Source: Breoghania sp.
GTDB taxonomy: Bacteria; Pseudomonadota; Alphaproteobacteria; Rhizobiales; Stappiaceae
DNA length: 64,000 nt
Direction of reading: 5' to 3'
NCBI RefSeq assembly: GCF_030066895.1
Contig: NZ_JASJAV010000001.1
Coordinates: 434,001-498,000, forward strand
Shown piece by piece: positions 11,024 through 30,307 of the stretch. Position 1 is the stretch's first letter; each line of letters opens with the position of its first letter. The notes beneath the pieces were generated by a model. It saw only the letters and a list, made by a program, of their open reading frames with translations, did not search any database and was not told the DNA's origin. Both the position numbers and the translations under genes were made by a program.

Positions 11024-11199
11024 CTCATCGACTTCAGACAAGGGACAGATCCATTTGGAGATTTAAAAATTAGAGATGACACACTAACAAGCCGGAACCG
11101 CTAGGTCAGGTCATAAGATGCATGTGCTGACGGATAGCCTACGCATTTTTGTCATAGCTAAAATGGAAAAATCGGCTCTGGAAAAGGATTTCCTCCCCC

Positions 11200-22033: not shown

Positions 22034-22900
22034 TCAGCCGGCGAGCTTTACCGGCACCTTGAGATAGGAAACGCCGTTCGCTTCGGCTGGCGGCGGCTTA
22101 CCGGCGCGCATGTTCACCTGAATGGAAGGCATCAACAGGTTGGGCGCGGCCGGGGTCGCATCGCGCGCTTCGCACATGGCGACATAGTCGTCCTCGCTCT
22201 TGCCCCGCCCACGTGGATGTTGCTCTCCCGCTCTTCCGCCACCGTCGTCTCCCAGGCATAGGAGTCGCGGCCCGGTGCCTTGTAGTCGTGGCACATGTAG
22301 AGCTTGGTATCTTCAGGCAGGCTCAGCAATCGGTGAATGGAACGATAGAGCCGGCGCGCATCGCCGCCGGGGAAATCCGCCCGCGCCGTCCCGTAGTCCG
22401 GCATGAAGAGCGTATCGCCGACAAACACCGCACCGTCGATCTTGTAGGAGATGCAGGCGGGCGTGTGACCGGGCGTGGCGATCACCTCCCCCCTTCAGCG
22501 AACCGATCTCGAAAATCTCACCGTCGGAGAACAGATGATCGAACTCCGAGCCGTCGCCGGAGACGTCGTCCGCATTGAAGACCGGACGGAAGATCTTCTG
22601 CACCTCGCGAATGCTCTCGCCGATGGCGACTTTGGCGCCGATCTTGAGCTTGGTATAGGGCGCGCCGGACAGGTGATCCGCATGGACATGCGTCTCCAGA
22701 ACCGAGACAATCTCCAGCCCCCTGTCGGCAGCCGTTTTCAGGATCGCATCGGCCGATCGGGTGGATGCCTTGCCGGACTTGTGGTCGTAGTCGAGGACCG
22801 GATCGACCACCGCCGCCTTGTGCGTTGCAGGGTCGACGACGAGATAGCTGACCGTGTTCGTCGGCTCGTCGAAAAAGGCCTGTATCTCCGGGGCGCTCAT
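22034..22900 (-). pseudogene. blh: Blh-type MBL-fold persulfide dioxygenase-like hydrolase, two frameshifts
   Basis: Metallo-beta-lactamase-fold enzyme of the ETHE1/Blh group, which oxidises glutathione persulfide to sulfite. Visible are VDPVLDYDHKSG, the metal motif THVHADHLSG, GHTPACISY, VGDTLFMPDYGTAR and MCHDYKAPGR. One extra G in the G-run near 22490 and one missing base near 22210 split it into three frames; the last begins at GKSEDDYVAM. It is divergent from bigR across a shared operator, as in Agrobacterium and Xylella. Confidence 0.85.
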
Positions 22901-22987: not shown

Positions 22988-23021
22988 TTGACAAATATAT
23001 TCATACATTCTAATGTTAGAA
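22988..23021 (+). promoter_or_regulatory. bigR promoter with overlapping AT-rich operator
   Basis: TTGACA (22988..22993), 17 bases, then TAATGT (23011..23016) form a near-consensus sigma-70 promoter reading toward bigR. The inverted repeat TTCTAA-TG-TTAGAA (23008..23021) covers the -10, and the flanks are AT-rich and partly symmetric (ATATATTC ... AAATATAT). Binding of reduced BigR there would repress both bigR and blh; known BigR boxes are similar AT-rich palindromes. Confidence 0.7.
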
Positions 23022-23047
23022 ATATATAATATACAATCTCGTCGAGG

Positions 23048-23365
23048 ATGGGAGCGATGCGTCCCTTGAGCGATACGGATGATCTCTCTGCGCGCGCCGG
23101 TGATGCGGCACGCCTGCTGAAGCTTATTGCCAGCGAAAGCCGGCTGCAAATCCTTTGCGAACTGGCCCATCACGAAGCTTCGGTCACCGCCCTGACCAAG
23201 GCGATCGGCCTGGGCCAGTCGGCGCTCTCGCAGCATCTGGCAAAGATGCGGGCGGAGGGCCTGGTCACGTTCCGCCGCGATGGGCAGACGCTTTACTACC
23301 GTATCGACAACCCGGCCGCCGAACGAATTCTGGTGCTGCTCAAGGATGTCTTCTGCGAGGTTTGA
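23048..23365 (+). CDS. bigR: BigR/SqrR-type ArsR-family sulfide-responsive repressor
   Basis: A 105-residue winged-helix ArsR-family regulator (LLKLIASESRLQILCELA, recognition helix GQSALSQHLAKMRAEG, wing FRRDGQTLYYRID). Two cysteines, in RLQILC and in DVFCEV, are 66 residues apart, exactly the spacing of the redox pair in SqrR (C41/C107); in that family polysulfide cross-links them and releases DNA. No metal-binding His/Cys cluster is seen. It heads a run with a rhodanese and a TauE gene. ATG 23048 or 23057 could start it. Confidence 0.9.
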   Translation: MGAMRPLSDTDDLSARAGDAARLLKLIASESRLQILCELAHHEASVTALTKAIGLGQSALSQHLAKMRAEGLVTFRRDGQTLYYRIDNPAAERILVLLKDVFCEV

Positions 23366-23480: not shown

Positions 23481-24038
23481 ATGAACCTGAAATCGATAGA
23501 TGCCCGCAAGGCGCAATCGCTGGTGGAAGCCGGCGCGGTTCTGATCGACGTGCGAGAAGCCTGCGAATTCGACCGCGAACGCATTCCCGGTTCCCTCCCC
23601 CATCCCATGTCGGAGATGCGGGACGGAAAGCCGGTTACCAGCAACAGCAGCAAGTTCATCTTCCTCTGTGCCACCGGTGCGCGCACCAATGCCAACAGCC
23701 CCGCGCTGGCCGGTTGCACCGATTGCGACGCCTATGTGCTGGAAGGCGGCCTCAGCGCCTGGAAGCCTGCAGGTCTGCCGATCGAACGGCAGGAGCGCAA
23801 GCCGATCTCCATCCTGCGCCAGGCCCTGATGGTAGCGGGCGTTCTTGCCATCGCAGACTTTGTGCTCGGCACCTACGTGGCGCCCGCCTGGCATCTTCTC
23901 TCCCTGCTTGTAGGGTGCGGCCTGCTCTTTTCCGGCTCCACCAACTTCTGCCCGATGGCCTTCTTCGTCTCGCTGCTGCCGTGGAACCGTAACCGTCCGC
24001 AACTTCCCGGAACAACCGGCATCGGCCAGTTCGGATGA
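23481..24038 (+). CDS. rhodanese-DUF2892 membrane protein (YgaP-like)
   Basis: A 185-residue two-part protein. Residues 1-105 form a rhodanese domain (IDVREACEFDRERIPGS) with the catalytic-loop Cys in FLCATGARTN, an unusual loop lacking the common CxxGxR pattern. Residues 110-185 have two membrane helices (LMVAGVLAIADFVLGTYV; LLVGCGLLFSGSTNFCPM) of the DUF2892 type. It probably relays sulfane sulfur at the membrane. GAGGA lies nine bases before ATG 23481. The stop overlaps the tauE start (ATGA). Confidence 0.88.
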   Translation: MNLKSIDARKAQSLVEAGAVLIDVREACEFDRERIPGSLPHPMSEMRDGKPVTSNSSKFIFLCATGARTNANSPALAGCTDCDAYVLEGGLSAWKPAGLPIERQERKPISILRQALMVAGVLAIADFVLGTYVAPAWHLLSLLVGCGLLFSGSTNFCPMAFFVSLLPWNRNRPQLPGTTGIGQFG

Positions 24039-24800
24039 TAGCAGCCCTGGCCAGCGGCGCTCTTGTCGGAGGGTCGCTAGGATTGATCGGCGGCGGCGGC
24101 TCGGTTCTGGCCGTGCCGCTGCTCGTCTATGTCGTCGGGGTTCCCGCGCCCCACATTGCGATCGGAACGAGCGCGCTGGCCGTCGCTGTCAATGCCGCGG
24201 TCGGGCTGGCCGGTCATGCGCATGCGCGGACGGTGAAACGGCCGTGCACGCTGGTTTTCGCCACCAGCGGTCTTGTCGGCGCGGCTCTCGGCTCACCCCT
24301 CGGCAAGGCGATCGACGGCGAGAAGCTCCTCGCCCTGTTCGGCCTGATCATGATCGTGGTGGGAATTTCGATGCTGCGTCGGCCTGCTTCCCATGACAAA
24401 TCCCGACGTTCATCTCGACCGAAGCAACGCCAAACGCCTGCTACCGCGTCTGATCCTCACTGCTTTTGGCGTCGGCGCTCTTTCCGGATTTTTCGGGATC
24501 GGCGGCGGCCTCCTGATCGTGCCGGGTCTGATTGCGGCGACCGCCATGCCCATTTTGAACGCGGTCGGCTCCTCGCTCGTGGCCGTGACCACTTTCGGCC
24601 TGACGACAACCTCCAACTACGCGCTGGCGGGTCTTGTCGACTGGTCGCTCGCCCTGCAATTCATCGCAGGCGGCGTCATCGGCACCAGCGCGGCAGGGCG
24701 TTTGGGAAAACGCAAGCACTCATTGACCCGGATCTTTTCCGCCGTGGTGATTTGCGCCGGTGTCTACGTGGTCGCCAAGGGCACGACCACATTCATCTGA
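24035..24800 (+). pseudogene. TauE/SafE family anion exporter, one frameshift
   Basis: Eight-helix membrane permease of the TauE/SafE family, about 255 residues. Each half has the repeat GxIGGGGSxLAVPLL: here GLIGGGGSVLAVPLL and GFFGIGGGLLIVPGLI. The first half ends MLRRPAS and the second begins PMTNPDVHLDRSN in another frame, so a base is missing or added near 24390. In the bigR operon it would export sulfite or a related anion made by Blh. Confidence 0.85.
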
Positions 24801-24823: not shown

Positions 24824-24853
24824 CCTCACTCGCTCCTTATCCGGCGAGTGAGG
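24824..24853. terminator. convergent hairpin between tauE and a response-regulator gene
   Basis: Perfect 10-base inverted repeat CCTCACTCGC / GCGAGTGAGG with a 10-base loop, 23 bases after the tauE stop and overlapping the last codons of the opposite-strand gene. T-runs are weak on both sides, so termination is likely but not certain. Confidence 0.5.
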
Positions 24854-25697
24854 ATACGGGCTTGTTCGCCGACGGAGCACGCTGAGACAGCTTGTCGACG
24901 ATCACCTTGAAGATCTCCACCGGCCGGAACGGGAATTCGATCTGGCCGTCGATCCCGAGTTCGTGCAGGGCTTCCTTGGCATTCTTGTTGAAGCCGGAAG
25001 GCACCAACACGACGATCTTCGACACCTTGTTCTTATGCGCCGAATTCTCCAAATATTGCAGCAGGTAATGCACCTTCTTGGAATAAACTAGGGAGCTCAC
25101 GTCAAAGCTCTGCTCCACGAAGGTATTGGCATGCAGCGTATCCTCCGGGATCACCGTGACCATGCAGCCGACTTCGCTGAGCGCTGACGTGATCGGCACG
25201 ATCGTCTTTGTATTGGCCGTGACGACGCACACCTGGATCGGCGGCTTTTCCTTCTGCGTTTCCTTGTAGACCTTGTAGAGCTTAGCCAATTGCTGACGGG
25301 AGTGCTCCGCCATCCGCTTGACGCCCGCAAGCCGCGTTTCGCTCGTCGCCAGCAGCATGTCGTAGTCGACAGGCTTGGCCAGATAATCGTCGGCGCCGAG
25401 CTTCTTGCCATCGATCACATCCTCGCGCGAGGAACACGCGGTGAGGAAAATAAACAGCACCTGACCCAATGTAGGCATCGTCTCGCGGATCGTCTTCAGC
25501 AATGTCGGACCGTCCACTTCCGGCATCATGACGTCACACAGAATGAGATCAGGCTTCATGGTCTGGAGAATATCCAGCGCCTCGCGGCCGTTGCACGCAG
25601 GCATCACGCCATAGTCGGAATCCTCCAGTTCCCCGACCAGATCGCCGAGCACCAGCTCTTCGTCTTCGACGCACAGGATGTTGATTTCTCCACTCAT
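24837..25697 (-). CDS. response regulator with uncharacterised C-terminal domain
   Basis: A 286-residue protein. Residues 1-125 are a receiver (acidic pair VEDEELVL, phospho-acceptor LILCDVMMPEVDG, switch FIFLTACS, Lys in DDYLAKPVDYD). A helix (MAEHSRQQLAKLYKVYKETQ) leads to a second alpha/beta domain (QVCVVTANTKTIVPITSAL, KIVVLVPSGFNKNAKEALHE) that resembles a degenerate receiver without the Asp. No DNA-binding or enzyme motif is seen. It lies 81 bases downstream of a PAS-containing kinase and is presumably its partner. Intact. Confidence 0.8.
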   Translation of the reverse strand: MSGEINILCVEDEELVLGDLVGELEDSDYGVMPACNGREALDILQTMKPDLILCDVMMPEVDGPTLLKTIRETMPTLGQVLFIFLTACSSREDVIDGKKLGADDYLAKPVDYDMLLATSETRLAGVKRMAEHSRQQLAKLYKVYKETQKEKPPIQVCVVTANTKTIVPITSALSEVGCMVTVIPEDTLHANTFVEQSFDVSSLVYSKKVHYLLQYLENSAHKNKVSKIVVLVPSGFNKNAKEALHELGIDGQIEFPFRPVEIFKVIVDKLSQRAPSANKPVSSLAG

Positions 25698-25778
25698 CAC
25701 CGATCCCCTTCGCTTCGAATAACCACTCACGTCCTCCTCGAACCGGGCGAAACCCTTCCGCCCGGCGATATTTGCGGG

Positions 25779-27415
25779 CTACGCCGCTTCCACCTTGCCG
25801 GTCTCGGCTTTGGTCTTGTCTGCGTCTTGCGACAAGGCATCCGTTTCCGCCGCCTTCGTATCCGGTGCCATGATCGGCAACCGCAAGGTGATCGTGCTCC
25901 CCTTGCCCAATTCACTCGAAATCGCCACGCGCCCCTTGTGACGCGAAATGATCATCTCGGTCAGATTGAGCCCGATGCCGGTTCCCGGAATGCCGCTCGA
26001 GGTGGAGGCCCGGTAAAACCGGCCGAACACCTTCTTGATCTCGCTCTTGGGAATACCGACGCCGAAATCGGAGACCGTGATCGACACGAACTTGTCGTCC
26101 CGGAAGACGTCGACCAGCACCTTGCCCGGCCCCTCGTCCTTATCCTTTACCGGCGAGTACTTGATCGCATTGCCGATGACATTGACCAGGCACTGTTCGA
26201 TCATGCGCCGGTCAATATTCAGCACCAGATTCCCGATCGTCTCATTCAATATGATCTCGTGGGTTTTCTGACCCGCCTGCTGCTGCTCACACACCGTCTG
26301 GATGATCGTCAGGAATTCATGCCGTTCCGGCGAGATTTCCAGAGAGTCGTCCTGTGAAATCAAGAAATCGATGAACCGCTTGATCAGGTAGTTGATGCGC
26401 CGCACGGCCTCACGGACATTGTCCAGCCGTTCAAGCACTGCCTCCGGCTCCAGATGCCCGAGCCCGCGCTTCAGCCACTGGGCGGCGCCGTCGATAATCG
26501 CCAGCGGCGTGCGGAATTCGTGCGAGGTCATGGAAACGAACTGCCGCTGCATTTCGTTCAGCCTCTTCTCCTTGCGCAGATGCTTCACGAGCTGATCGGT
26601 ATGAGCTCACAGCTTCTTGTGCTGCTCCTTGAAGTCGGAGACATCGGAAAAGACGACGATGTACCCGCCCGTAGCCACGCTGGAGACCTGGATGCGGAAC
26701 CAGCGGTCGAACATCCGCTGATCGCTTTCCACGGCAACCTGGGAGAAGAAATCCTCCAGATCCTGTACCTCGCCCATTCGAACGGAAACGCATCCTTGAG
26801 ATGCGCCTGAACCGCGAGATGGGCATCGATCTCGGGGTAAAGGCTCTTCATGTTGGAATTGGCGAGCATCAACCGACCCCGACCGTCTGTCATCACCAAA
26901 GCATCGGGGATCGCGTCCACCGCGGAGGAGAGAAGATCGCGGCTGAGTTCCAGTTCCCGCGACCGGCTCTGCAGGGTCCTCACAAGCTGAAGCTGGCTTT
27001 CTTCAAGCTGCAGCTCCACCTTGCGATAGTCGGTGATATCGGAATAGACGGTGACCTGCCCCCCTTCGGGAAGCGGCGTCACCTGAACCTTCAGCATCCG
27101 GCCGTTCGGCAAAGCGCGATCGAAGGCCTCAACCTTCGTCCTCTTCGATTCCGCCGTGACCCGCGCCACCAATTCATCGATATCGCCGGGCCCGTAATCT
27201 CCGCGCAGGGCGAAGTAGCGGATGATATCGGACAGGTTCGGAGCCGTATCGAACAGACACTCCGGCGGATCGAGCAGATCCTTCGCCATGCGGCTGAAGA
27301 CGATCACATTGAGATCGTCATCAAGAAGCGCAATGTCCTGATGAATCGAACTCAACAGGGCCGGAACGAGAGCCGTGTCCTTTACATTCTCTCTTATGAA
27401 ATGCCCAGACAGCAT
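25779..27415 (-). pseudogene. PAS-domain sensor histidine kinase, frameshift and in-frame TGA
   Basis: Soluble kinase with two PAS-like domains (LLDDDLNVIVFSRMAKDLL ending VTVYSDITDYRKVE, and VDAIPDALVMTDGRGRLML ending IVVFSDVSDFKEQHKKL), a coiled-coil, then HisKA H-box SMTSHEFRTPLAII and HATPase (NAIKYS, SDFGVGIP, GTGIGLNL). A base is missing near 26780 and a TGA sits at 26607..26609 in KKL-stop-AHTDQ. The kinase core from 26588 down remains open and has a GTG that could start it. The ATG at 27415 is preferred; a TTG at 27442 is in frame. Confidence 0.8.
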
Positions 27416-27580
27416 CGCAGCACCGATCCAAGAATTATCCAACTTCTCAAACCGATTACCAGAAGGAACTTAAATTATAAATAAATGAAATAGTTCAATT
27501 TATATTCCTATCGTTACGTTTGATAAACGTAATTTTGCACTAGGGGTTATTACTCTGATATTTTAACACAAAGCCGAAGA

Positions 27581-29233: not shown

Positions 29234-29888
29234 TCAATCGACTTCATCGGACGGAACGATCCAGGCCTCCGCGAGAGCGGCCTCATACCATTCGCGCATG
29301 GCCGGGTGGTTGAGAACCGCATCTATATAAGCGCGGGCCACATCGTCCACGGCCACGTCATAGGTGACGAGCCTACTGACAACGGGCGCATAGAACGCAT
29401 CGGCCGCACTGAAAGATCCGAACAGGAAATCCCCCCGCGCCGAACCGCGTCCGCATCTCGCGCCAGATCTCGACGATCCGCGCGACATCGGCCTCCACAT
29501 CGTCGACACGCGAGCGTGCCGCGGGAACCCGACGGATATTCATCGGATAGTAGCCGCGCAAGGCGGTGAAGCCGGAATGCATCTCTGCAACGACCGCACG
29601 GGCGTGAGCCCGAGCCTCCCGATCTGCCGGCCACAATCCCGCCTGAGGAAACCGTTCCGCCAGATATTCGACGATCGCCAGACGGTCCCAGACCGAAAGG
29701 CTTCCGTCGATCAGAACCGGCACGCGCCTCGCCGACGAATAATCACGGATTGCATCGTGCGTATTCGGCGTATCGAGCGGAACCATCACCTCCGTAAATT
29801 CCGCCCCCGTCTGTTTCAGGGCGAGCCAGCCGCGCAGCGACCAGGTGGAATAGTTCTTGTTGCCGATGACAATCTTCACGCCTGACAC
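29234..29888 (-). pseudogene. glutathione S-transferase family protein, one frameshift
   Basis: About 217 residues when joined. A thioredoxin-like N-domain (IVIGNKNYSTWSLRGWLAL, RRVPVLIDGSLSVWDRLAI) precedes a helical C-domain (EMHSGFTALRGYYPMNIR, FLFGSFSAADAFYAPVVSR). One extra G in a G-run near 29430 shifts the frame. It sits between mccB and a rhodanese gene on the same strand with short gaps. Confidence 0.85.
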
Positions 29889-29911: not shown

Positions 29912-30307
29912 TTACCACTTCGGATCGGGAAGCTCAGCCGCACCGCTGGCTTCCTGCCATGCGCCGAATCCGCCCGCAATGTGCGCGACGTTTTCCAGTC
30001 CCATGTCCTGCACGGCCTTGGTCGCCAGCGCCGACCGCCACCCGGCGGCACAGAAAAAGATGAAGCGCTTGGGCTCCGAAAAGACCGGGCGATGGTAGGG
30101 ACTGTCGGGATCGACCCAGAATTCGAGCATGCCTCGTGAGGCATGGACGGCCCCGGGCATGCGCCCCTGACGGGACAACTCGCGGATATCCCTCAGATCG
30201 ACGAAAACCGTATCCGCCTCACCGAAAGCCGTGATCGCCTCCTCCACCGGCAACGTGACGGTTTCCGCCTCAGCCTCCTCGATGAGCTGGCGGTATCCCT
30301 TTTTCAT
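29912..30307 (-). CDS. rhodanese-like domain protein
   Basis: A single 131-residue rhodanese domain: VFVDLRDIRELSRQGRMPGA, then the catalytic loop FFCAAGWRSALA with its Cys, and HIAGGFGAWQEASG. It is cytoplasmic, with no signal peptide. It lies 23 bases before the GST gene on the same strand. Intact. Confidence 0.9.
   Translation of the reverse strand: MKKGYRQLIEEAEAETVTLPVEEAITAFGEADTVFVDLRDIRELSRQGRMPGAVHASRGMLEFWVDPDSPYHRPVFSEPKRFIFFCAAGWRSALATKAVQDMGLENVAHIAGGFGAWQEASGAAELPDPKW

Follow-up and report, generated by a model that had tools for sequence, protein, structure and literature searches.

Over which letters of its own promoter an ArsR-family regulator would lie, and which neighbouring genes it would control from there, is the question raised by the 64,000-nucleotide stretch of DNA analysed here (the window), which is C1:434001-498000 of genome G000 (4.65 Mb in 52 contigs, completeness 94.89). 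The original prediction had placed a BigR operator, the palindrome TTCTAATGTTAGAA, directly over the −10 box of a near-consensus promoter, and had proposed from it a steric repression, relieved by sulfide, of bigR, rhodanese and tauE genes and probably of a divergent blh gene.

Genes of the locus and register of the putative operator

The regulator gene is followed on the same strand by the genes of a rhodanese and of a TauE/SafE-type exporter, and it faces a divergent gene on the other strand. The features of the locus are collected in Table 1. The alternative ATG of the regulator has, as judged by eye, the sequence GAGG nine bases upstream. The regulator shares 91% identity with that of Breoghania corrubedonensis, and the match in genome G002, which like G001 belongs to a congener of the window genome (genus Breoghania), likewise reaches 91%. 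The divergent gene had been labelled blh, and this label was not retained: the gene matches only positions 141-374 of the 423-position Blh model, in two pieces lying in two frames, and the matching part is the metallo-beta-lactamase part. It is probably better read as a stand-alone gene of the persulfide-dioxygenase type than as a Blh fusion. Its frame is open in B. corrubedonensis and broken in the window.

Table 1. Coordinates of the genes, promoter elements and putative operator boxes of the regulator locus in the window.
Feature	Coordinates	Strand	Remarks
Divergent persulfide-dioxygenase-type (ETHE1-like metallo-beta-lactamase) gene	22037..22900	−	start 22900; frame-broken in the window assembly
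−35 TTGACA of the putative regulator promoter	22988..22993	+	6/6 consensus; TTGAC recurs in relatives
Candidate −10 TATATT of the divergent dioxygenase promoter	22994..22999	−	8/12 with either −35
Box 1 (putative), ATTCATACATTCTAAT	22999..23014		outer half-site TTCA degenerate (for TTAG); minus strand ATTAG-N9-AT
Palindrome TTCTAATGTTAGAA	23008..23021		arms TTCTAA/TTAGAA, gap TG; seam between box 1 and box 2
−10 TAATGT of the putative regulator promoter	23011..23016	+	falls on the box 1/box 2 seam; relatives have TAANTT
Box 2 (putative), GTTAGAAATATATAAT	23015..23030		outer half-site ATAA in place of CTAA
Candidate −35 of the divergent promoter	23016..23022	−	TTCTAA (N16) or TTTCTA (N17); weak
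ArsR-family regulator gene	23048..23365	+	Cys37, Cys103; alternative start ATG 23057
Rhodanese gene with YgaP-like membrane part	23481..24038	+	
TauE/SafE-type exporter gene	24035..24800	+	two frames, switch near 24397

Frame changes were found at four places of the window, namely 22037-22900 (−), 24035-24800 (+), 25779-27442 (−) and 29373-29888 (−). The third of these is a PAS sensor kinase gene split into the ORFs 27442-26585 and 26588-25779 (−), and the fourth, as judged by eye, is a GST-like ORF. The completeness of the window genome is 94.9%, against 99-100% in the two congeners, and the frame changes together with this lower completeness suggest indel errors in the assembly, while decay is possible. 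A response-regulator gene (24837-25730, −) follows the sulfide genes directly and adjoins the split kinase, and B. corrubedonensis also has a response-regulator gene beside its sulfide genes. In addition, a second rhodanese-like ORF occupies positions 29912-30307 (−).

The register of the operator was examined by comparison of the upstream regions of relatives. The best 80 of 313 from a genome-contig search and 29 from other genomes gave 109 relatives, two of which were excluded for having less than 150 nt upstream. Once duplicates were merged, the remaining 107 represented 92 different upstream regions, of which 70 belong to the 80 genome-contig relatives; the window itself is not among the 92. 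TTAG-N6-CTAA was present in 61 of the 92 regions, CTAA-N1-TTAG in 46, and at least one of the two in 69; in the regions from the genome-contig relatives (best 80 of 313) this last figure was 64 of 70. In dinucleotide shuffles the mean was at most 0.3, with a maximum of 3 in any one shuffle. At other spacings TTAG and CTAA were combined in only 0-2 regions, with the exception of N21 (26 regions), which is the composite read from end to end. The exact composite with all four half-sites was found in 16/92 regions and neither exact motif in 23/92 loci. There were 23 loci with TTAG-N6-CTAA and without an exact CTAA-N1-TTAG, and 8 with the reverse; among the former, L013, L025, L030, L044 and L049 have a single box that runs into CTAATATAT. 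We conclude from these counts that the minimal unit is the box and not the seam. With respect to the neighbouring genes, a divergent dioxygenase gene starting within 600 nt was found in 45 of the 92 loci, 44 of which have a motif, and the genes downstream included a rhodanese in 44 of the 92 loci and TauE in 33, some loci ending early.

The conserved unit of the relatives being TTAG-N6-CTAA, and TTCTAATGTTAGAA being the seam at which two such boxes adjoin, the 14-bp palindrome was not supported as the operator. We re-draw the operator as, probably, two adjoining 16-bp boxes whose seam lies on the −10. When at most one mismatch per half-site was allowed, the seam of the two-box composites measured one base in 47 cases, two bases in 1, three bases in 1 and four bases in 4; that of the window measures two bases, which among the 92 regions is shared by B. 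corrubedonensis alone. The composite score threshold (at least 11/16) was reached by 78/92 loci versus 4/92 mononucleotide-shuffled regions, and the two-base-seam composite of the window, at 23000, has 13 of the 16 letters. Box 2 of B. corrubedonensis is perfect. Against two boxes, it should be noted that both outer half-sites of the window are weak and that its seam exceeds the usual length. A search tolerating 3 mismatches gave one match to the two-base-seam composite versus 7 for the reversed control, and also one, elsewhere, to the one-base-seam composite versus 10 for the reversed control.

An EM motif search was carried out on 90 upstream regions, with Breoghania excluded, and the symmetrised matrix was scanned over the 64 kb. 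The best 16-mer was ATTAGcAatt.CTAAt. At this width the two highest scores in the 64 kb were those at 23015 (10.8 bits) and 22999 (9.9 bits), and the palindrome register, at 23007, came 24th with −0.84 bits. With a width of 14, the top score belonged to box 2 (14.2) and box 1 ranked third (7.1), with an unrelated site at 11148 (7.5) between the two; the palindrome register had −2.9. With a width of 30, both box-centred places took the first two ranks and the palindrome register the sixth (1.5). A second operator near 27467, with 8.4 bits at width 30, was considered and rejected; it lacks the TTAG/CTAA core and was taken as an AT-rich chance match.

At the level of whole genomes, the sole exact ATTAG-N6-CTAAT of G001 lies 17 bases upstream of the orthologous regulator match. 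The sole one of the window genome is found at C1:91010-91025 (L146) and not at the regulator promoter, and the G002 genome has none; the exact motif alone would therefore have missed the window site. The site at C1:91010 precedes an HlyD-like membrane-fusion gene (−), and by our estimate chance alone would produce about one such match. It is a possible second target of the regulator.

Family of the regulator

The regulator belongs to the ArsR/SmtB family (Pfam HTH_5, E 8.8e-12; NCBIfam HTH_metalloreg, 85.6 bits with a cut-off of 55). When compared with solved structures, it scored 78 bits with 6o8l, which we take to be SqrR, and with others listed as 'ArsR family', and 74 bits with 5znx ('transcriptional activator'). 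The scores with solved relatives of known name were 73.5 and 68.5 bits for HlyU (3jth and 4k2e, respectively), 67 for YgaV, 66.5 for NolR and 58 for BigR of Xylella. The BigR label was abandoned in view of these values, HlyU, YgaV and 6o8l all scoring above Xylella BigR, and of the score of about 75 bits (75.5/74.9) with the BigR model NCBIfam NF040642, whose cut-off is 155. TTAG-N6-CTAA was found in none of the 30 loci retrieved with the BigR model (two scoring over the cut-off; approximately 3 kb per locus). BigR in the strict sense was thus rejected, both for the score below the cut-off and for the lack of this motif in the BigR-model loci. A paralogous regulator of the window genome (C1:202577-202861, L002/L134), with 45% identity, reaches 102.8 bits with the same model versus 74.9 for the window regulator, and has no TTAG-N6-CTAA nearby.

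The cysteine spacing of 66 residues, which had been taken as a match to SqrR/BigR, is indeed present, and both residues align with cysteines of 6o8l and HlyU. The same spacing occurs in BigR (42/108), in SoxR and sHdrR (50/116) and in HlyU (38/104), and since SoxR, sHdrR and HlyU share it, it does not single out SqrR/BigR. Both cysteines were kept in 65 of the 69 loci with the motif and in 21 of the 23 others. The core of the recognition helix, QSALSQH, was present in 68 of the 69 motif loci and also in many of the 23 motif-less ones. The recognition helix of HlyU (3jth, 4k2e) reads QSALSQHLA, while most BigR-model loci have helices of the RQPTVSQQL or RQAAVSQQL kind and 6o8l has RQAAVSQQL.

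Candidate promoters on the two strands

The letters reported for the regulator promoter are exact, with TTGACA-N17-TAATGT at 22988-23016 and the palindrome over its −10. To call it near-consensus is generous: the −35 agrees with the consensus in all six positions but the −10 in only 3/6 with respect to TATAAT, giving 9/12 in total, and a promoter scan at its own thresholds did not list TTGACA-N17-TAATGT. TTGACA-N17-TANNNT occurs a single time on the two strands of the 64 kb taken together, where perfect 6-N2-6 inverted repeats number 25; therefore, a palindrome of this type is not rare per se and the promoter is the more notable of the two. The 14-mer itself, with up to three mismatches allowed, was matched only at its own position. 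In B. corrubedonensis the 32-base block TTGACA...GTTAG is conserved with one difference and the outer arm of the palindrome is broken (TTAGCA instead of TTAGAA). TTGAC was located 11, 12 or 13 bases upstream of box 1 in 36 of the 78 composite-scored relatives, 39 being without TTGAC there, and this distance puts the seam TAANTT at 16-18 bp, that is, at the position of a −10. The relatives thus argue for TTGACA/TAATGT as the putative promoter of the regulator.

On the minus strand of the window, TTTCTA-N17-TATATT and TTCTAA-N16-TATATT agree with the consensus in 8/12 letters each. ATATA directly preceded box 1 in 36/45 loci with a divergent dioxygenase versus 7/33 without (Fisher p 2.5e-7), and CAA followed the TTAG of box 2, giving a −35 TTGCTA on the other strand, in 31/45 versus 8/33 loci (p 2e-4), although these p values are too small because the loci are related. 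This CAA is missing in the window, and B. corrubedonensis retains TTGCTA. TTGAC was likewise commoner with a divergent dioxygenase (32/45 versus 6/33). Among ten phylogenetically independent pairs, 7 spoke for the ATATA link and 1 against, with 2 ties (6 versus 1 with L017 corrected). The divergent dioxygenase promoter thus probably overlaps the same operator as the regulator promoter. In L017 (2438-2845, −), which had been counted as non-divergent, the two-box region, ATATA and TTGAC are accompanied by a divergent neighbour that is AhpD-like, as judged by eye, and not a dioxygenase, and the switch may drive other genes there.

Proposed mechanism, known systems and alternatives

We propose, with a probability of about two in three, that a dimeric ArsR repressor of the SqrR/BigR/HlyU kind acts from two adjoining boxes on two overlapping divergent promoters. 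The boxes, the −35, their conservation, the two cysteines and the neighbouring genes are seen in the sequence. Repressor dimers would bind the two ATTAG-N6-CTAAT-type boxes at 22999-23014 and 23015-23030. The boxes begin shortly after the −35 of the regulator promoter and would reach approximately to its start point, and their seam falls on the −10 TAATGT; for the putative dioxygenase promoter, read on the opposite strand, they would overlap the −35 and directly adjoin the −10. The reduced protein would exclude RNA polymerase from both promoters. On exposure to persulfide or polysulfide, Cys37 and Cys103 would become bridged and the DNA freed, with induction of the dioxygenase on one side and of the regulator, the rhodanese and the TauE exporter on the other. 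From the comparisons we infer the binding, its two dimers, the response to persulfide and both start points. As far as comparison goes, the steric model originally put forward is supported in its autoregulatory, thiol-sensing ArsR repressor over its own −10 and in its shared divergent control, and was revised in the palindromic operator and the BigR label. A more tentative extension, to which we give somewhat less than even odds, is that of a sulfide switch, widespread in proteobacteria, whereby two dimers on adjoining NolR-type boxes shut both divergent promoters, the half-sites doubling as −10 and −35 letters, and of which Breoghania would be a variant with one extra base in the seam.

BigR blocks the transcription of its own operon, whose −10 region it recognizes (PMC5823870), and steric repression at this element has therefore been published for BigR and is a known mechanism. 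Like the BigR operon of Xylella fastidiosa and Agrobacterium tumefaciens, in which sulfide or polysulfide releases BigR and sulfur-dioxygenase and TauE genes are controlled, the window locus has a putative ArsR repressor with two cysteines 66 residues apart and genes of these two kinds, whose control is proposed here from their sequence (PMC5823870). It differs in that Blh is there a DUF442-ETHE1 fusion inside the operon (PMC5823870), whereas the dioxygenase of the window is encoded alone, by a divergent gene, and the rhodanese has a gene of its own. No description of the two-box arrangement was found in the open-licence literature, as searched outside the primary BigR papers.

Vibrio HlyU is similar in its helix core, its cysteines 66 residues apart and the presence of CTAAATTAG in the hlyA site (PMC4330345). 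Unlike the repression over the promoter proposed here, it is described as an activator that acts 173 bp upstream of the hlyA promoter (PMC4330345, PMC10509353); after treatment with GSSH it showed virtually no DNA binding (PMC10509353). HlyU shifted the 35-bp probe O1 but not the first-half probe O2; O3, where a run of G makes up most of the first half and CTAAATTAG is left untouched, was not shifted either (PMC4330345). That O3 was not bound despite its intact seam fits the box model, but a run of G can disturb the shape of the DNA; the centre of the 17-bp palindrome drawn by the authors lies approximately 2.5 bp off the position expected for a box (PMC4330345).

YgaV of E. coli protects its own promoter elements, and for SqrR of Rhodobacter capsulatus the site ATTC-N8-GAAT has been deduced (PMC9774250). 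A thiol switch of the persulfide type, proposed in our case, and an operator span of 16 bp are common to these systems and the window, and the half-sites differ, ATTC in SqrR and ATTAG in the boxes of the relatives (PMC9774250). NolR of Sinorhizobium, the ArsR-family relative with 66.5 bits, has the consensus (A/T)TTAG-N9-A(T/A), whose geometry is that of a single box; the minus strand of box 1 (ATTAG-AATGTATGA-AT) fits it exactly and box 2 (GTTAG-AAATATATA-AT) misses it at the first base (PMC12445080). Unlike the window regulator, NolR regulates nodulation genes (PMC12445080).

A single dimer on TTCTAATGTTAGAA, or on the SqrR-like ATTC-N8-GAAA in the same register, could also block the −10, and the Breoghania site might have drifted from a two-box form. 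The perfect arms in the window, the agreement of this register with the deduced SqrR site (PMC9774250) in 7 of 8 fixed letters and the weakness of both outer half-sites are in its favour, but B. corrubedonensis, with a 91% identical regulator, breaks the GAA arm and has a perfect box 2, ATTC-N8-GAAT is present in 0/92 and TTC-N8-GAA in 3/92 upstream regions, the register ranks low in the motif scan, and the HlyU oligonucleotide with an intact seam was unbound (PMC4330345). The SqrR consensus was ruled out as the operator of the relatives by its count of 0/92. The palindrome as the whole operator was rejected on the spacing spectra, the motif register and the HlyU O3 probe, and we keep it as an alternative for the window strain only, where we consider it unlikely.

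Somewhat less likely still is that the operator is the same but the −10 of the regulator is the TATAAT at 23025-23030, with the boxes lying between the −35 and the −10. This TATAAT is perfect and, with CATACA 17 bases upstream, reaches 9/12, equal to TTGACA/TAATGT; however, CATACA makes a poor −35, the corresponding letters in B. corrubedonensis are TCTAAT, and TTGAC lies 16-18 bp from the seam in the 36 of 78 relatives mentioned above. That the conserved letters are only those of promoters, in an AT-rich start region devoid of operator function whose repeat symmetry is incidental, would agree with the weak half-sites of the window and with box parts that double as a −10 and, on the other strand, as a −10 and a −35. 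The fixed N6 spacing in 61/92 regions, against 0-2 at nearly all other spacings, and the near-invariant recognition helix across the motif loci make this very improbable.

The two adjoining boxes under two divergent promoters are thus, in our reading, a probable regulatory site with a known mechanism, ordinary in kind and useful in detail, for which the register of the operator and the label of the gene have been corrected. Two TTAG-N6-CTAA boxes would provide a concrete operator model for a group of sulfide-detoxification loci. This model replaces the register to which a lone palindrome would point, and the motif may be used to find further targets of these regulators.
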